Shown: positions 19,902-34,700 of the stretch, in pieces
Position numbering within the stretch: the stretch's first letter is position 1
How the letters are laid out: each line of letters starts with the position of its first letter
Origin: Methylocystis sp. ATCC 49242
GTDB lineage: Bacteria; Pseudomonadota; Alphaproteobacteria; Rhizobiales; Beijerinckiaceae
DNA: 64,000 nucleotides
Direction: 5' to 3'
NCBI RefSeq assembly: GCF_000188155.2
Contig: NZ_KE124774.1
Coordinates: forward strand, 594,736-658,735
Translations under genes and position numbers: made by a program
Notes under the pieces: model-generated
Database searches by the model: none
Seen by the model: the letters and a program-made list of their open reading frames with translations, nothing else
What the model was told of the DNA's origin: nothing

Positions 19902-21194
19902 CTACTGTGAATATTTGATCAGCAAAAATCCGCGCGTCCACGTCAGCCTGGTGGCGTCGGTTTTCGGATCCTGGTCGGGTAGCGCCTTGATCAGTCTGGA
20001 AGGCTGTGACCTGAAGATTCCGGTCGTGGGATCGAAGAGAACCGTATTGAGATAGGTCCCATTCGGGCAGGCGAATTGGGCGAAGTCGTCCGTCTCGATG
20101 TTCGGCCAACTCTTGTAAGTATGACAAAGACTGAGTTTTCGCATGAGTTGGCTCGGAGCGTTGACGGCGCCGAAATCCTTGAGCGTGAAATAGGCGCCCG
20201 ACACGCCAACAAAATTGGCCGTGGTGTCGGCCAGGTTCGGCGCGCCATTTTTCGCAAGGATCGTCGAGATTGTTCCGTTGAAAAGCGTGCTGCAGGGTTT
20301 CGAGTAGAGATTATAGCCCCCGTTGACTTTCAGCTTCGGGTATCTGGGATCGCTTTCTCCCAGATCCCATTGATAGGGAAAACCTGTCGCCCAGCAGTTT
20401 TGCGGCGCCTGCGTCTCGCGAACATATTTCCTGGCGTCGTCGAGGCCCAGTCCGAGATAGGTGCGGGAGAAAACATTATACTTCCTGTTATTGATCCGAA
20501 CTTCATACACATTCTGATCCGGATTGGGCTGCTGCCGGCTGGGATAGGCAATCTGCGCCGAGGAACCTCCGACTTCGAAGTTGCCGACAGGCGGCGTCGC
20601 CGTTTTGAAGACATTGAAATAGACGTCGTTCAAATTGGCCCATGTCCAGACGCCTTCTTCCGCATTGCCATTTGTCGTTCGTACTTCGCCGACCGAAAAT
20701 CCTTTGGTTCGAACGCCAGCGCGGATAAATGCGTATAGCCTGTCGACCGCAGCCTTTCCGCAGAGCGCTTGCGCCGTCCGCATCCCGGCGGTCGCAAATA
20801 AATTGACAATCACACGATCCGCCGGGACCGGCGGGCTGATATTCGCGATTTTTGAACTGAGCTCCTGAAGCAGCGGATCGATCACCTGCGGCACGACTTT
20901 CGCGGGCGGCGCATAGTCCGGGTTGTTGCAGACGAAATTGTTTATGCCGTCTTCCTTTTTGCCGTTCGGCTGCACTTTCCTTTCAAAGTTGTCGATCAGC
21001 ATCTCGATTTGCGCGTAAGGCCCGGGCGTAACCTTGTAAAAGAAGAGCCTTGTGCCGCTACTGCCGGCGTCGATGACGGCAGTGTAAACAGGCGGAATGG
21101 CCTGGGCATGCGCAGCGCCCCCCGTGCTGAAGAAGCTTGCGGCCACGGCCAGCAGGCAACACAGTTTTTGCAAGTTGGCTCTCAAGATTTTCAT
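19902..21194 (-). CDS. Secreted GDA1/CD39-family nucleoside phosphatase (apyrase-like)
   Basis: 430 residues with a signal peptide (LLAVAASFFSTGGAAHAQA) and the apyrase conserved regions in order: ACR1 VIDAGSSGTRLFFYK, ACR2 FATAGMRTAQ, ACR3 EEGVWTWANLNDV and ACR4 NFEVGGSSAQIAYP. The catalytic Glu of ACR3 and the phosphate-binding loops are present, so an active ecto-NTPDase acting on nucleoside di- or triphosphates outside the cytoplasm is likely. This family is mainly eukaryotic and sporadic in bacteria (for example Legionella). No neighbour suggests a pathway; the gene is flanked by an A+T-rich region. Confidence 0.88.
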   Translation of the reverse strand: MKILRANLQKLCCLLAVAASFFSTGGAAHAQAIPPVYTAVIDAGSSGTRLFFYKVTPGPYAQIEMLIDNFERKVQPNGKKEDGINNFVCNNPDYAPPAKVVPQVIDPLLQELSSKIANISPPVPADRVIVNLFATAGMRTAQALCGKAAVDRLYAFIRAGVRTKGFSVGEVRTTNGNAEEGVWTWANLNDVYFNVFKTATPPVGNFEVGGSSAQIAYPSRQQPNPDQNVYEVRINNRKYNVFSRTYLGLGLDDARKYVRETQAPQNCWATGFPYQWDLGESDPRYPKLKVNGGYNLYSKPCSTLFNGTISTILAKNGAPNLADTTANFVGVSGAYFTLKDFGAVNAPSQLMRKLSLCHTYKSWPNIETDDFAQFACPNGTYLNTVLFDPTTGIFRSQPSRLIKALPDQDPKTDATRLTWTRGFLLIKYSQ

Positions 21195-24252: not shown

Positions 24253-24343
24253 TTGCCGCGCATGTGATTCGCTGCGGAGAGGCGAAACAGGGCTGTGATG
24301 AATTTTGGGATAGCGGTTGCCTGAGCGGCCAGGGCGCACTACC

Positions 24344-25147
24344 TTGAACTTGTCCATTATCAAACCTTTGGCCGATCACGTGCATTCGGATGATTTCTTT
24401 GATCTGATTGACCGGCTGGCGCGCGCCGACCGCGTAGAAGCCGCATCCGATATCATCACCGGCTTTACGAATGCGTGGGGGCTTCACAACGTCGCCTACG
24501 CGGCGCTGAACATGCCGAGCCCCGGCGCCGCGCGGCCGCTGTTGTCGATGACCTATTCGGTGGAATGGCAAAAGCATTACGCCCAAAGCGGTTACGTTGA
24601 CATCGACCCGATCGTCCGCTCGGGCCTCGGCGGCATTCTTCCGATCGACTGGTCGGAGATCGACCGCGGCGATCCGATCATTCGCAAGTTCTTCGGCGAG
24701 GCGCAGGAACTCGACGTCGGCGCTAATGGAATGTCGATACCCATCCGCGGCCGCCACGGGGAATTCGCCCTTTTCACCGTGACATCGAACGAAAATGCGC
24801 TCGAGTGGCGCGCGATTCGCCGCGATCTGATTCGCGACCTGATGGTGGTTGCATGGAATTTCCATGCTGCGGCGCTGCGCTCATGCGGGGAACTGGCCGA
24901 ACCGGGCGACGTGCATCTGCCGCTGCGTGAGGCGAGTTGCCTGCGGTGGAAGGCGCTCGGCAAAACCGACGAGGAAATCGGAAGAATTCTCGTTATAAGC
25001 CCGCACACCGTGCGCTTTCATCTCGAATCGGCGCGCGCGCGGCTGAACACGGCGAATACCACGCACACGGTAGCGAAGGCGCTTGCTCTGGGACTGATCA
25101 ACATGTCCTATGAGCCGACCCATCTGATGCCCAAAAAACGTAAATGA
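24344..25147 (+). CDS. LuxR-family acyl-homoserine-lactone-responsive transcription regulator
   Basis: Quorum-sensing receptor. The N-terminal domain carries the ligand-pocket residues of the TraR/LuxR family: Trp and Tyr in EWQKHYAQSGY, Asp in VDIDPIV, Trp in PIDWSEI and Gly in NGMSIPI. The C-terminal GerE/LuxR helix-turn-helix is LREASCLRWKALGKTDEEIG then VISPHTVRFHLESARARL. Start is uncertain: no ATG opens the domain, and TTG codons at 24317 and 24344 are candidates; I used 24344, which has AGGG about 10 bases before. The luxI-type gene follows 81 bases downstream. Confidence 0.9.
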   Translation: MNLSIIKPLADHVHSDDFFDLIDRLARADRVEAASDIITGFTNAWGLHNVAYAALNMPSPGAARPLLSMTYSVEWQKHYAQSGYVDIDPIVRSGLGGILPIDWSEIDRGDPIIRKFFGEAQELDVGANGMSIPIRGRHGEFALFTVTSNENALEWRAIRRDLIRDLMVVAWNFHAAALRSCGELAEPGDVHLPLREASCLRWKALGKTDEEIGRILVISPHTVRFHLESARARLNTANTTHTVAKALALGLINMSYEPTHLMPKKRK

Positions 25148-25228
25148 CCCCCCCATTTTCGGGAGGTGATAACACACTGAAAGTCCTGCAAGTTTTCCAA
25201 ATCACCAACTGATATGGGGATTTGCAGG

Positions 25229-25876
25229 ATGATCAAAATCATACCGGGAGAATGGCGCGCGCGTTTTCCGCGACTGATCGACGAAATGCACAAGCTTCGG
25301 CGCAATGTCTTTCACGAGCGCCTCAAGTGGCAGGTGACTGTCATCAACCGCTGGGAAATAGACGGTTACGATGCGCTGGACCCGCTCTATGTGCTCTCGC
25401 TGGACGAAAATGAGCGGGTGATCGGCGGGCTTCGACTTCTGCCGACCACTGGCTTCAACATGCTCAACGATACTTTTCCGCAGCTTTTGCCAGACGGCGC
25501 GCGCATAGAAAGCCCGCTGATCTGGGAGTCGAGCCGCTTCACCGTCAGAATGACGGGCGACAGCCGCGTCGACGCCCCGGTCATCAGTCGCGCCACGGCG
25601 GAGCTCGGACTCGCCCTCAATGAAATCGGCAAGGCCGCCGCCCTCAGCCATATCGTAACGGTTTATGACCGCGCGATGCATCGCATGCTCATGCGCTGCG
25701 GTTGCGCTGGAGAACCGCTTGGCGCGCCCCAGATGATCGGCGGCGTCGAGACTTACGCCGTGCTCTACGAAGTCGGACCGGAGTGGGACGCGCGCGTCAG
25801 ATGTCTCGCGGGGCTGGCCGGCCTCTACCTCGATCCGGCAGTCGTCGACACGATGCGGGCAAGACTGGCGTCATGA
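25229..25876 (+). CDS. Acyl-homoserine-lactone synthase, LuxI family
   Basis: Makes the acyl-homoserine-lactone signal from S-adenosylmethionine and an acyl donor. Counting from the ATG at 25229, the family-invariant residues fall where expected: Arg24/Arg25, Phe28 and Trp34 in the RRNVFHERLKW helix, Asp45 and Asp48, then the arginine of GGLRLLPTTG and the glutamate and arginine of WESSRFTV. The upstream ATG at 25214 is rejected because GGGGA spaces better to 25229. Which acyl chain is used cannot be told by eye. The next gene starts on the ATGA of its stop. Confidence 0.93.
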   Translation: MIKIIPGEWRARFPRLIDEMHKLRRNVFHERLKWQVTVINRWEIDGYDALDPLYVLSLDENERVIGGLRLLPTTGFNMLNDTFPQLLPDGARIESPLIWESSRFTVRMTGDSRVDAPVISRATAELGLALNEIGKAAALSHIVTVYDRAMHRMLMRCGCAGEPLGAPQMIGGVETYAVLYEVGPEWDARVRCLAGLAGLYLDPAVVDTMRARLAS

Positions 25877-26796: not shown

Positions 26797-28269
26797 TCAA
26801 GCCAGAGAGTGAAGCTTGGCTTTGAGGTCGCCGATCTCCGTTTCCGCGCGGATCTGGTCCGTGACGTCATATTGGACGCCGAGGAAGTAGATGAGCTGAC
26901 CTTGCGCGTCGAAAAGCGGCGTAATGTTGAGCTTGTTGTGAAACAGCGCGCCATCCTTGCGGTAGTTGCGCAGAGTCACTTCGATTGCCTGTCGGTTGCT
27001 GATGGCCTCGCGCAGTCGACGAAGCCCCTCTTGGTCGCGATCTTGCCCCTGCAGGAAACGGCAATTGCGGCCGATGATCTCGGCGACCGAATAGCCCGTG
27101 ATGTCCTCGAATCGCTTGTTCGCGTAAACAATTGGCGCATCTTCTAGATCGGGGTCGGTCAGGGTGACGCCGTTGACGCAAGTATCCAGGATCGTCGTCA
27201 AAATCTCGGGGATGATCTCCGAATCCTTGCGAACGGAAAACATCTGCGCCTTGTCCTGGCTCTTCGATTTGGCCCAGACCCGATAGGCGCTCGGCGCCAT
27301 GTCGGTGAAGCGGCGGAATGCGCGGCGGAAGCTCGCCTCGTCGATAAATCCGGCGCTGGCCGCCAGCTCCTTCACGGGCTTGACGCTGGTTTCCAGCAGC
27401 ATTCGGGCGGTTTCGACGCGGATGCGGTCGATGAAAGTCTTGGGCGACTCGCCGCAGGCCTGTTTCAGCCTTCGGTGCAGCGTGCGCTCCGACGTAGAGA
27501 GCGCCCGCGCGAGATCCTGAGCGTTGAAGGCGGCGTCAGATTGCCGGACGATTCGCTCGGCCTCGGAAAGAAACGAATCGGAGCTGTCGCCGAGCACGCT
27601 CACATTGTAGGCGGCCCCGCGTATGCCGCCCTTCGCGGGCGCCGATTCGCCAAGAGTGAAGTCAGCTGCGATTCGGCCCGCGTCCGGTCCACAGAGCGTC
27701 CGGATCACGTGCAGCGCCACGTCGATCCAGGAGAGAGGTCCCGCCGCCGTGACGACTCGGCGATCGTCGATCAACCTTGCGCCCCAGGCCGTGTCGGCTC
27801 TCGGATAGCGCTGCTTCAGCTCCTCGTGGTGCCATCGGCTGGTCGTGCAACGACGTCCTTCGAGCAACCCCGCCTCGCCGAGAAGGAAGACGCCAGAACC
27901 GCAACCCCCGATAAGAGCGCCGCGGGAATGATGCCGGCGCAACCATGCTGCGGCTGCGGCGTGGGCCGACATGTCCGGCGGCTTGCCGTTGGGATCGGGC
28001 GCGAAACTCGGCACGATAACGGCGTCGCATGTCGTGACTTCCTCGAAAGAGGTCTCGACCTCGAAAGTCGCGCCCGAGCCGTCCCGCACGGGACGCCCGG
28101 TCGCGCTGGCCGTGACGACGCAGAAGTCCGCGTCTCCGCCGCCGGAGTCCTGATCGGATGGAGCCAAAGCGCCGCCGATCGCCCGCCGCGCGAGCGTCAG
28201 AAGATCGGTCAATCCGAGAAAAGCGGAGCCCAGACAGCCGTCCAGGCCGGCCACGACGATCTTGTGCAT
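26797..28269 (-). CDS. DJ-1/PfpI-like + AraC-type + LOV-domain fusion: putative blue-light-responsive transcription regulator
   Basis: 490 residues in three parts. Residues 1-195 are a GlxA-type DJ-1/PfpI domain, with the nucleophile-elbow Cys at 123 (GGCGSGVFLL). Residues 225-335 are an AraC helix-turn-helix pair (DLARALSTSERTLHRRLKQA and ELAASAGFIDEASFRRAFRR). Residues 355-475 are a full LOV/PAS domain with the photoactive motif GRNCRFLQG: Cys403 is the flavin-adduct cysteine, Asn402, Arg404 and Gln407 follow the flavin-binding pattern, and Asn435, Asn445 and Gln466 match the other flavin contacts. A short helical tail (AETEIGDLKAKLHSL) may be a J-alpha-like linker. GlxA-type regulators are normally about 320 residues without a PAS part. 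It is divergent from ftsH2. Confidence 0.9.
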   Translation of the reverse strand: MHKIVVAGLDGCLGSAFLGLTDLLTLARRAIGGALAPSDQDSGGGDADFCVVTASATGRPVRDGSGATFEVETSFEEVTTCDAVIVPSFAPDPNGKPPDMSAHAAAAAWLRRHHSRGALIGGCGSGVFLLGEAGLLEGRRCTTSRWHHEELKQRYPRADTAWGARLIDDRRVVTAAGPLSWIDVALHVIRTLCGPDAGRIAADFTLGESAPAKGGIRGAAYNVSVLGDSSDSFLSEAERIVRQSDAAFNAQDLARALSTSERTLHRRLKQACGESPKTFIDRIRVETARMLLETSVKPVKELAASAGFIDEASFRRAFRRFTDMAPSAYRVWAKSKSQDKAQMFSVRKDSEIIPEILTTILDTCVNGVTLTDPDLEDAPIVYANKRFEDITGYSVAEIIGRNCRFLQGQDRDQEGLRRLREAISNRQAIEVTLRNYRKDGALFHNKLNITPLFDAQGQLIYFLGVQYDVTDQIRAETEIGDLKAKLHSLA

Positions 28270-28445
28270 CTCCCCCCGTCTTTTTGGCGAATTATGGACT
28301 GAATTTGGCTATTTCGCCATCCTGACCTAGATTGGTTCCAATCACACATTGGACAAGGCGAGGGCATCCGTCCTCCGTCCAATGACGATTTAGCAAGGGG
28401 AGGACGCTCCAGTCGTCGGAAGCGTTTGTTCCTCGGGAGGTGAAA

Positions 28446-30371
<1,926 letters not shown>

Positions 30372-30595: not shown

Positions 30596-31366
30596 ATGAG
30601 CTCGACGACAAGCGCGGCTGCTGGCGCAGCTGCAGAAGTAGAATCCGTAGTCGATCTGCGTGGCATGTGGATTGGCCTCGTATTGCTGAACGTGTTTTAT
30701 CTGATCGTTCGCATTTACGAGCAGGTCTTTGGCTGGCGCGCGGGTCTGGACTCGTTCGCTCCGGAGTTCCAGACGTATTGGATGTCGATCCTGTGGACGG
30801 AGATTCCGCTTGAGCTGGTTTCGGGCCTCGGCCTTGCCGGCTATCTGTGGAAGACCCGCGACCGCAACGTCGACGCTGTTACGCCTCGTGAAGAGATGCG
30901 TCGTCTCGTTGTCCTGGTTCAGTGGCTTGTCGTTTACGGCATCGCCATTTACTGGGGCGCTTCGTTCTTCACGGAGCAGGACGGCACCTGGCACATGACG
31001 GTGATTCGCGACACGGACTTCACGCCGTCGCACATCATCGAGTTCTACATGAGCTACCCGATCTACTCGGTTATCGCGGTTGGCGCGTTCTTCTATGCGA
31101 AGACCCGCATTCCGTATTTTGCTCATGGCTACTCGCTGGCGTTCCTGATCGTCGCCATCGGCCCGTTCATGATCATCCCGAACGTTGGCCTGAATGAGTG
31201 GGGCCACACCTTCTGGTTCATGGAAGAGCTGTTCGTTGCTCCGCTTCACTGGGGCTTCGTGTTCTTCGGCTGGATGGCTCTGGGTGTGTTCGGCGTCGTC
31301 CTTCAGATCCTGATGCGCATCCATGCCCTCGTCGGCAAGGAAGGCGTCAAGCTCCTGACCGAGTAA
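30596..31366 (+). CDS. pmoC: Particulate methane monooxygenase subunit C (orphan copy)
   Basis: Membrane subunit of the copper enzyme that oxidises methane to methanol. 256 residues with six or so membrane helices. The metal-site residues known from methanotroph structures are all here: Asp129 and His133 in QDGTWH and His146 in TPSHIIEF (the Asp156/His160/His173 set of Methylococcus numbering), and Asn200, His204 and His218 in LNEWGHTF and PLHWGF (the Asn227/His231/His245 set). No pmoA or pmoB follows; a terminator stands 10 bases after the stop. GGAGG lies 8-9 bases before the ATG. Type II methanotrophs are known to carry single pmoC genes outside pmoCAB; codon use here is high-T compared with neighbours, as in highly expressed pmo genes. 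Confidence 0.96.
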   Translation: MSSTTSAAAGAAAEVESVVDLRGMWIGLVLLNVFYLIVRIYEQVFGWRAGLDSFAPEFQTYWMSILWTEIPLELVSGLGLAGYLWKTRDRNVDAVTPREEMRRLVVLVQWLVVYGIAIYWGASFFTEQDGTWHMTVIRDTDFTPSHIIEFYMSYPIYSVIAVGAFFYAKTRIPYFAHGYSLAFLIVAIGPFMIIPNVGLNEWGHTFWFMEELFVAPLHWGFVFFGWMALGVFGVVLQILMRIHALVGKEGVKLLTE

Positions 31367-32288: not shown

Positions 32289-32957
32289 TCAAGCGATTGT
32301 TTCTTCCCCGGCTTTACGCCGATGCGAGTGAAGCGTCATGTAGAAGCTGACGACAACGAAACCAATGCCCAGCAGCGCGACGATGATGAAGAGCGACGTC
32401 CTCTGAATGATCGCCATCGCTGGCACGAAGATGGCGAGGATGAGGCCGACGACGCAGATCTGCCATGCCTCCGCGTGCACGCCGGCGACGAAAGTCGCGA
32501 GCGCGAGAAGCGTCATGAGGTTCAGGCCGGTGGCGTTGACGTCGACGAGGGTGCGGATCGTCGGCGAGTAAATCAGCCACATGGCCGCGAGGAACGCCGC
32601 CCAATGCAAGATTTGCGTCCAGATGAGTTTGATTCGCTCCTGTCGCGTGTCCGCGTGGCGCCAGCCGACGTAAATGCAGATCGCGCAATAAACAGGGGTC
32701 AGCAACTCCCAGTAATAGCCCGACGGCTCGCCCGTGAAAGTGACGAGGCCGATGCCGAAAACCGCCATCGACAACATGATGATGTAGGGAAGATCGATCT
32801 TGACTACATCGAGGAAGAGAACTTCCGCAGGCTGCGTCCGGATCTCCTCGATCCCTTCTTCGAGCGCTTCCACCCAGCCGTGCTCATGAGGCTTTTGGCC
32901 TTCGGTGGCCGGGCCGGCGGTGACGTTCGTTTCGGCCTGGTCGGGGCTGTTCGACAT
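32289..32957 (-). CDS. Multi-span membrane protein, family not recognised
   Basis: 222 residues. A soluble N-terminus of about 50 residues (SPDQAETNVTAGPATEGQKP then EALEEGIEEIRTQP) precedes about six membrane helices, starting with LPYIIMLSMAVFGIGLVTF and ending with SLFIIVALLGIGFVVVSFYM. Several acidic residues near the membrane borders are conserved-looking but no transport or enzyme motif is visible. It is convergent with the DUF1269 gene. No function proposed. Confidence 0.75.
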   Translation of the reverse strand: MSNSPDQAETNVTAGPATEGQKPHEHGWVEALEEGIEEIRTQPAEVLFLDVVKIDLPYIIMLSMAVFGIGLVTFTGEPSGYYWELLTPVYCAICIYVGWRHADTRQERIKLIWTQILHWAAFLAAMWLIYSPTIRTLVDVNATGLNLMTLLALATFVAGVHAEAWQICVVGLILAIFVPAMAIIQRTSLFIIVALLGIGFVVVSFYMTLHSHRRKAGEETIA

Positions 32958-33835: not shown

Positions 33836-34700
33836 GAGGGTGTTATGTACTTTGGTGATTGATTGTCTTAGTAGAATCGGATGTCTCCGATTCGCAAACC
33901 TTATCCGTCTGACGTCAGCGACGAAGAATGGTCGCTGGTTGCGCCTTATCTGACGCTCATGGACGAAGGCGCGCCGCAGCGTCAACATTCGCTGCGCGAG
34001 CTGTTCAACGGCCTGCGTTACGTGCTGCGCTACGGCATCGCCTGGCGCGCCATGCCCAACGATCTGCCGCCATGGTTCGCCGTGTATCAGCAATCGCAGC
34101 GCTGGCTGTCGGCGGGCGTGTTCGAGGCGCTTGCGCAGGATCTGCGCGCCCAGTTGCGCGTCGCTTCCGGGCGGGCGGCGGAGCCGACGGCGGCGATCAT
34201 CGACAGCCGCACCTTGCGCTCGACCCCTGAGAGCGGCCCACGAGCGGGCTATGACGGCGCGAAGCGAAAGCGCGGCTCGAAGCTGCACATGGCAGTCGAC
34301 ACATTGGGCCATTTGCTGGCGTTGCATGTCACGCCGGCGAATGTCGATGACCGCGCCGAGGTCGGCAAGCTCATCGCAGCCGTGCAGGATGTGACAGGCG
34401 AAAGCGTCGAACTCGTTTATGTCGATCAGGGCTACACCGGCGAAAAGGCGTCCGAGGCGGCGAAGGCGCAAGGCGCCGAACTGTGCGTCGTCAAACTTGC
34501 CGAAGCGAAGAAGGGCTTCGTGTTGCTGCCCAAGCGCTGGGTGGTCGAGCGTTCATTCGCCTGGGCGACGCGATGCAGGCGGCTCGTCAAAGACTACGAG
34601 CGCTATGCTCAGACCCTCGCAGGACTCCACGTCGTCGCCTTCGCATGTCTCATGCTCAAGCGCGCAGCAGATTTCATGATCCAAGGTGCATAACACCCTC
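33836..34700 (+). mobile_element. Complete IS5-type insertion sequence (IS427-like group)
   Basis: 12-bp perfect terminal inverted repeats GAGGGTGTTATG at 33836 and CATAACACCCTC ending at 34700 bracket a single transposase gene. The dinucleotide TA flanks both ends, fitting the TA target duplication of the IS427 group of IS5. The element is 865 bp and looks intact. Confidence 0.9.
33881..34693 (+). CDS. IS5-family transposase
   Basis: 270 residues. N-terminal DUF4096-type segment SDVSDEEWSLVAPYL, then the DDE domain: first Asp in AIIDSRTLR, second in VYVDQGYTG, and Glu in VVERSFAWATRCRRL, with the YxxR-E type spacing ending in KRWVVERSFAW. It is a one-frame IS5 transposase, unlike the frameshifted IS1031-type versions. 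The protein is complete and the element may be mobile. Confidence 0.93.
   Translation: MSPIRKPYPSDVSDEEWSLVAPYLTLMDEGAPQRQHSLRELFNGLRYVLRYGIAWRAMPNDLPPWFAVYQQSQRWLSAGVFEALAQDLRAQLRVASGRAAEPTAAIIDSRTLRSTPESGPRAGYDGAKRKRGSKLHMAVDTLGHLLALHVTPANVDDRAEVGKLIAAVQDVTGESVELVYVDQGYTGEKASEAAKAQGAELCVVKLAEAKKGFVLLPKRWVVERSFAWATRCRRLVKDYERYAQTLAGLHVVAFACLMLKRAADFMIQGA

Follow-up and report, generated by a model that had tools for sequence, protein, structure and literature searches.

A LOV-domain regulator of the AraC type facing an ftsH-pmoC gene pair in Methylocystis

Results

Organization of the locus

The stretch of DNA analysed here, referred to as the window, comprises 64,000 nucleotides of Methylocystis sp. 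ATCC 49242 (contig NZ_KE124774.1, positions 594,736 to 658,735 of the forward strand). It contains a gene for a 490 aa protein, LOV-TF, that is divergent from a second copy of ftsH (ftsH2), which in turn is followed by a lone pmoC gene. The features, numbered from the first nucleotide of the window, are as follows:

24317..25876, plus strand: luxR (24317-25147) and luxI (25214-25876), frequent neighbours, convergent with LOV-TF
26797..28269, minus strand: LOV-TF (DJ-1/PfpI, AraC-type HTH and LOV), 490 aa; ATG-start ORF, Pfam domains, orthologues
26836..27201, minus strand: LOV domain, approximately residues 357-478; PAS_9, solved LOV structures, invariant flavin-contact residues
27061..27063, minus strand: codon of the adduct cysteine C403, within GRNCRFLQG; read from the sequence, kept in 21/21 orthologues
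27280..27513, minus strand: AraC-type DNA-binding domain (HTH_18), residues 253-330; Pfam, E 3.6e-23
27700..28131, minus strand: DJ-1_PfpI domain, residues 47-190; Pfam, E 7.7e-14
28284..28319, plus strand: operator-like element TTGGCGAATTATG-N8-TTGGCTATTTCGCCA in the LOV-TF/ftsH2 intergenic region; conserved, 36 bp
28305..28333, plus strand: weak sigma70-like hexamers TTGGCT-17-TAGATT directed towards ftsH2; read from the sequence, 4/6 and 4/6 matches
28446..30371, plus strand: ftsH2, ATP-dependent membrane zinc metalloprotease; TIGR01241, Peptidase_M41, AAA, start context
30596..31366, plus strand: lone pmoC, methane monooxygenase subunit C; PF04896
31712..32233, plus strand: DUF1269 protein, the conserved next gene, start uncertain; Pfam, synteny
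32289..32957, minus strand: conserved 222-aa protein with no Pfam match, at the edge of the syntenic block; synteny

For ftsH2 we use the ATG at 28446, the listed ORF beginning at a GTG at 28440. The second ftsH and the adjacent quorum-sensing operon named in an earlier sequence-only reading of this DNA are both present, the latter as a neighbouring luxR-luxI pair, as judged by matches to domain or family profiles. Elsewhere in the window there is a nucleoside phosphatase gene of the GDA1/CD39 type (19902-21194), and an IS4/5-type transposase gene (33881-34693) lies near the edge of the conserved block. Apyrases of the GDA1/CD39 type are better known from eukaryotes.

Domain structure of LOV-TF

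All three domain matches in LOV-TF exceed the Pfam gathering cut-offs. The HTH_18 match identifies the two-HTH DNA-binding domain of the AraC/XylS family, and the PAS_9 match covers residues 367-471 (E 9.6e-22). The solved proteins that best match the C-terminal part are 3sw1 ('Sensory box protein', E 1.5e-30), 2pr5 ('Blue-light photoreceptor', E 2.4e-29) and 2v0u ('NPH1-1', E 6e-28), which we take to be the P. putida LOV protein, YtvA and oat LOV2 respectively. This part has the PAS core of a LOV domain together with the adduct cysteine in GxNCRFLQ and the flavin-contact residues N, N, Q and R. The 21 LOV-TF orthologues are identical at N402, C403, R404, Q407, R411, R420, N435, N445 and Q466, presumably the adduct and flavin-contact positions, and the earlier assignment of Cys403 and the other flavin contacts is confirmed; one further arginine-contact position is L416 in the protein of the window and R in 12 of the 21.

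Purifying selection is evident on each of the three domains (dN/dS 0.00 to 0.18 in six pairs), and HTH_18 is 75-91% identical to that of the 20 other orthologues. An AlphaFold2 model (mean pLDDT 63.7; 25-65 by blocks in the LOV part) is too poor for use. Taken together, the Pfam domains, the matches to LOV structures, the invariant residues and the dN/dS values confirm, far beyond chance, the three-domain protein at 26797..28269, and LOV-TF almost certainly combines a blue-light receptor and an AraC-type regulator in one fused protein.

Relation to known regulators and photoreceptors

The N-terminal two-thirds of LOV-TF match the GlxA/FtrA-like regulators, with DJ-1_PfpI followed by an AraC-type HTH, although the match to the NCBIfam FtrA model (E 1.3e-40) falls below the cut-off of that model. 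Compared with these regulators LOV-TF has an added C-terminal LOV domain, and its nucleophile cysteine is displaced or lost. At the DJ-1 nucleophile elbow all 10 aligned LOV-less sister regulators (described below) and an Erwinia relative have [SA]C[NS]G, whereas the motif in LOV-TF is GCGSG. Among the 21 aligned orthologues none has the cysteine at the place it occupies in the sisters: all have Gly there, with Cys one residue before the usual position in 19 and Ala in two. The label of a GlxA-type DJ-1 domain given in the sequence-only reading thus stands as a domain match and fails as regards the nucleophile cysteine. The replacement of the elbow cysteine by Gly suggests that an older chemical cue may have been abandoned as the LOV domain entered.

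In EL222 the LOV domain comes first and is followed by a LuxR-type HTH, and LOV-TF is not of this type, as its HTH is AraC-type and its LOV domain C-terminal. LOV-TF would nevertheless resemble EL222 (named in PMC9614035) and other LOV-HTH proteins in being a one-component blue-light transcription factor. In the BLADE proteins, as described there, an AraC-type DNA-binding domain is joined to LOV, one version being AraC-VfLOV; BLADE is man-made, whereas LOV-TF is natural and has a DJ-1 domain in front (PMC9614035).

The closest published counterpart is the Methylocystis McLOV-TF (McLOVn-TF) of El-Arab, Pudasaini and Zoltowski (2015), in which an amidotransferase/AraC region and HTH are joined to LOV (PMC4416707). 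We liken the two by architecture and length: the order of the amidotransferase/DJ-1-type domain, HTH and LOV is the same, the 490 aa of LOV-TF equal the length implied by the McLOV-TF construct (residues 337-490), and there are short LOV proteins in both genomes. In the account given by those authors the full-length protein is insoluble; for the LOV domain in isolation they show flavin binding, a 390 nm adduct that decays in 130 s and a dimeric state (PMC4416707). For Methylocystis, then, the architecture has been in print since 2015, as has the photochemistry of its LOV domain studied in isolation. In the available text of the paper none of the words ftsH, pmo, methane, operon and quorum appears, and targets are not addressed.

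Distribution and origin of LOV-TF

Full-length LOV-TF occurs in 21 of the 39 genomes of its own genus, and a further genome, G034, has two pieces at contig ends. A wider scan of contigs turned up 10 copies that are full-length or close to it (L009-L017, L021) and a single fragment (L018), in records labelled Methylocystis, Methylocystaceae and once Hyphomicrobiales, some of which are genomes of the 39-genome count. Outside the genus, searches of 298 family, 385 class and 398 phylum genomes yielded no full-length fusion, these draws being overlapping and the family draw including members of the genus itself; as at most 3-5 candidates per genome were scored under strict E-value limits, fusions could be missed. 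Among plasmids, none of 1560 matching records covers 80% of LOV-TF. Within this scope, the earlier description of the arrangement as uncommon holds.

In a tree of LOV domains those of LOV-TF form one clade (98/92) among the short LOVs, and in a tree of regulators the N-terminal parts form one clade (100/97) that is sister to the LOV-less regulators of the genus (97/96). Both trees have midpoint roots only. The LOV tree leaves out an 85-residue remnant from G005, and the regulator tree leaves out pieces with stops or fewer than about 280 aligned residues and has one row (L078_4018) labelled 'other' though it is divergent from pmoC. Given a single LOV-TF clade in both trees, one fusion event would be the simplest account of these sequences.

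Conservation of the ftsH2-pmoC pair

The ftsH2 gene is divergent from LOV-TF in all 21 full-length loci (distances are tabulated for 12 of them), which, being orthologous, represent one inheritance and not 21 independent events. The divergent ftsH2 is a plausible target, as proposed earlier. Wherever the contig of a full-length locus runs past ftsH2, pmoC follows (10/10: G000, G002, G003, G008, G009, G010, G012, G014, G018, G024), with about 5 kb between the two genes in G002 and with pmoC cut by the contig end in G024. In G034, where contig ends interrupt LOV-TF itself, ftsH2 is again divergent, and no pmoC was found in the next 7.8 kb.

The PmoC protein encoded in the window is identical to two others of its own genome (C6:1016838 and C6:2442495), the genes for which are each followed by pmoA and pmoB, with one pmoB reading in two frames. 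Its DNA differs from each cluster copy at 2 of 771 bases, while the flanks diverge at once, exact identity stopping 2 bases upstream and 41 bases downstream; on this pattern the coding part of pmoC looks to be under concerted evolution. In the second of the pmoCAB clusters (L107:1514-2843) the pmoB region is divided between two ORFs that overlap in different frames and each match a portion of Monooxygenase_B, and in the first pmoB is a single 442-aa ORF. The split pmoB is either a broken copy or a sequence error.

The sequence-only reading had also put forward the quorum-sensing operon as a target, for which the case is weak. luxI lies near LOV-TF in 16 of the 21 loci and was not seen in G014, G016, G019, G023 and G037 (about 1.5 kb downstream is visible in G016 and G023). 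It is convergent and has no promoter region in common with LOV-TF. Given this orientation and the five loci in which luxI was not seen, we set quorum sensing aside as the main target and do not judge luxR-luxI to be part of the LOV-TF unit.

LOV-less sister regulators

The genome of the window has three LOV-less relatives of LOV-TF (50-52% identity), and in the genus 42 near full-length LOV-less sisters are listed (48-56% identity), two short fragments (G011:C22 and G002:C4) having been left out. Of the 42, 23 are divergent from pmoC at a distance of 164-210 bp, five have pmoC just downstream and 14 are without pmoC within 600 bp in the tables; by tblastn two of those 14 (G028, G031) have a cut-off pmoC just downstream, which makes seven downstream in all.

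In five genomes (G000, G002, G007, G017 and G018) the gene order is regulator, pmoC, ftsH, the reverse of that at the LOV-TF locus, so that regulators of this family, PmoC and FtsH are brought together in two arrangements. The trio is on a named plasmid contig in G007 and in a 3.6 Mb contig in G018, while the pair of G000 lies across the two ends of contig C4, which we assumed to be circular. Only decayed pieces of ftsH follow at the sister locus of G024, and there is no ftsH near the sister-regulator pmoC in L065, L080 and L082-L084.

The helices that would contact DNA are also similar. In the first, LOV-TF has SERTLHR[RK]LK and the six aligned pmoC-divergent sisters SERTLHRRLK or one change from it. 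The second, DE[AT]SFRRAFRR, is common to LOV-TF (changed in G012 and G014) and the chromosomal pmoC-facing sisters L065, L080 and L083; elsewhere it reads DQ[AT]SFRRAFLR in two aligned plasmid-type sisters and DATSFRRAFQR in G004.

In G127, a genome from a different genus of the family, a LOV-less relative has neither pmoC nor ftsH within 12 kb. We rejected a link in other taxa, as the plasmid-borne relatives in Enterobacter and Pantoea adjoin a small monooxygenase and alcohol dehydrogenases instead. An 'antibiotic biosynthesis monooxygenase' adjoins LOV-less relatives lacking an adjacent pmoC in two Methylocystis plasmids and one Enterobacter plasmid (L122:5602-5907, L123:8609-8917, L120:5570-5875), and this neighbourhood is maybe the ancestral context.

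The intergenic element

The element between LOV-TF and ftsH2 is recognisable at all 21 LOV-TF loci, more weakly in L032, L045 and L046, and has a single match within the window (0 in 100 shuffles). Its right half overlaps the sigma70-like hexamers, although a promoter scanner gave nothing above threshold in the LOV-TF/ftsH2 spacer. If the hexamers are used, the overlap could be read as the position of a class II activator.

A weight matrix of the 14-bp core, made from 8 distinct sites, was scored in 15 regulator/pmoC spacers against 300 shuffles of each. No shuffle was as good for the G000 chromosome, G003, G006, G007 and G009, and 2, 5 and 14 of the 300 were for G033, G035 and G022; in G004 the core is weak (45/300), and in six plasmid-type spacers it is unsupported (80-146/300). 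Among the aligned sisters this split tracks the second DNA helix of the facing regulators. The core is not specific in its own genome, with 48 matches at one mismatch or fewer, two of them exact (5 for the reversed control).

We also considered the core as a feature of pmoCAB operons. It was not found before the two clusters of the same genome, in which pmoA and pmoB were confirmed (171 and 177 of 200 shuffles as good), nor before three presumed pmoCAB operons (193 in G022, 85 in G009 and 38 in G001, of 200). A sixth region (12/200) was ruled out as a pmoCAB operon, the next two ORFs being neither pmoA nor pmoB.

Discussion

Proposed control of ftsH2-pmoC

From the established domains, residues and conservation, the fixed linkage to ftsH2 and the single clade, we infer binding at the element 28284-28319, the operon regulated, the sign of regulation and the physiological purpose along the following lines. 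LOV-TF, the counterpart of McLOV-TF, would be a dimer that is both blue-light receptor and transcription factor, and in it blue light would give rise to a short-lived Cys403-flavin adduct. The resulting change in the LOV domain may alter the seating of the AraC-type domain on the paired element beside the ftsH2 promoter, and so the expression of ftsH2 and of pmoC behind it. FtsH would clear damaged or surplus subunits of the particulate methane monooxygenase (pMMO), and the complex would be replenished from the extra supply of identical PmoC, light thereby setting pMMO quality control. Our best reading is accordingly that blue light might tune the FtsH protease and the supply of PmoC as upkeep of pMMO. 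That LOV-TF acts on ftsH2-pmoC we regard as somewhat probable, a confidence lowered by the G034 locus and by the contig end in G006; that its purpose is the upkeep of light-damaged pMMO is a tentative suggestion.

Whether LOV-TF would act alone at the element is a different matter. The element is kept without LOV-TF in G006, G007 and G022, and in G005 with a LOV-TF remnant, and was not found in G001; the presence of the element in four genomes without an intact LOV-TF means that it is not used by LOV-TF alone, and we rejected an exclusive LOV-TF operator. The remnant in G005 (L070:6694-7005) is a single short frame that holds an N-terminal piece together with one from the C-terminal LOV domain. 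As ftsH2-pmoC is kept in G005, G007 and G022 (the G006 contig ends before pmoC), the operon works without LOV-TF. An alternative, which we consider unlikely though the best of those weighed, is that a LOV-less sister owns the ftsH2 element, or that both regulators compete for it, LOV-TF modulating expression as, for example, a light-dependent competitor at shared operators. Each of G006, G007 and G022 has a LOV-less sister facing pmoC, G001 has neither LOV-TF nor a sister, and the chromosomal sisters match LOV-TF in their DNA helices and share the 14-bp core. On the other hand, the element persists in G005, for which no close sister is listed, though the remnant there suggests a recent loss of LOV-TF, and the element accompanies every one of the 21 full-length LOV-TF genes.

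A further alternative is that LOV-TF regulates mainly itself or distant genes, such as luxRI or those for short LOV proteins, and that its adjacency to ftsH2-pmoC is a frozen neighbourhood. Autoregulation is common among divergent regulators, the syntenic block keeps DUF1269 and other genes also (with luxI near in 16/21), and G001, G005, G007 and G022 have the ftsH-pmoC pair without LOV-TF. Yet ftsH2 is missing at none of the 21 loci, the lux genes are convergent and unseen at five, and elsewhere a sister regulator stands with pmoC and ftsH in the opposite gene order, and we find this explanation improbable. As methanotrophs do not need light, the LOV domain might also be a flavin-based redox or dark sensor to which light is incidental, a reading that is in our view very improbable given that the adduct residues are invariant in 21/21 orthologues. 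El-Arab et al. did raise sensitivity to oxidative stress through conserved N-cap cysteines, which speaks for a redox role, although in their published isolated LOV domain the adduct chemistry is intact and fast-cycling (PMC4416707).

Returning to control of ftsH2-pmoC by LOV-TF, a more specific and speculative form is a light-gated repair cycle of pMMO, in which blue light raises the FtsH that clears photodamaged PmoC while the identical spare PmoC refills the complex. LOV-TF would read blue light before damage builds up, and it might have arisen from a sensor linked to pmoC and FtsH in which the DJ-1 cysteine disappeared and a short LOV domain was acquired, light taking the place of a chemical cue. 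We liken this to the repair of photosystem II in cyanobacteria, which involves D1 and FtsH.

An ftsH gene adjoining a monocistronic pmoC was described by Dam et al. (2013) for Methylocystis SC2 (BN69_0853/BN69_0852) and, with the order reversed, for strain Rockwell; the authors speculated on a check for properly folded pMMO (PMC3794950). The locus of the window shares this gene pair with that of SC2, and in the available text of the paper neither 'AraC' nor 'blue light' occurs and no regulator is linked to the pair. Lone PmoC proteins are subject to regulation, as a plasmid-borne one of SC2 falls to log2 -4.8 at 50 mM ammonium in the text available of PMC9600857. The accessible parts of two papers on lone pmoC copies (PMC10171618 and PMC7285482) have no ftsH or AraC. 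No other paper joining a regulator of the LOV-TF kind to the ftsH-pmoC pair was found in the open-licence literature, and in that literature a LOV-TF facing ftsH2-pmoC was not found in print. No target came with the photoreceptor when it was published in 2015, and no regulator with the gene pair in 2013; joining them gives both a testable role. The fixed place of LOV-TF on the FtsH-PmoC pair, together with its pmoC-linked sisters, offers a direct and testable target for an orphan photoreceptor. Light inhibition of methanotrophy is referred to in a paper on a lake methanotroph (PMC12211021, in the text available), and a blue-light regulator with a fixed position beside pmoC would provide a means by which a methanotroph responds to light. 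It would also supply optogenetics with a natural AraC-LOV architecture.

Short LOV proteins

El-Arab et al. proposed competitive dimerisation of McLOV-TF with short LOV proteins (PMC4416707), and the genome of the window encodes two short LOVs (62-66%). Among 15 genomes of the genus in 20 contigs or fewer, intact short LOV genes occur in seven of the nine with LOV-TF (not in G008 and G014) and in none of the six without it (G001, G004, G005, G006, G007 and G022). The rule is not strict, as five fragmentary genomes (G028, G030, G031, G033, G036) have a short LOV and no LOV-TF was seen in them. This co-occurrence, in counts that ignore the relatedness of the genomes, agrees with a working link between LOV-TF and the short LOV proteins. 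In G005 the short LOV is a remnant too, of 85 residues.

At 19 of the 22 short LOV loci examined in the family (L067:4938-6962, L068:5794-7783, L124-L133, L135, L137-L140, L142 and L143) the short LOV gene forms a trio with genes of the SRPBCC/Polyketide_cyc2 and fatty-acid-hydroxylase families. L134 and L136 lack it (L136 is near a contig end) and L141 is a remnant. The trio may have a function in lipids or membranes that is linked to light.
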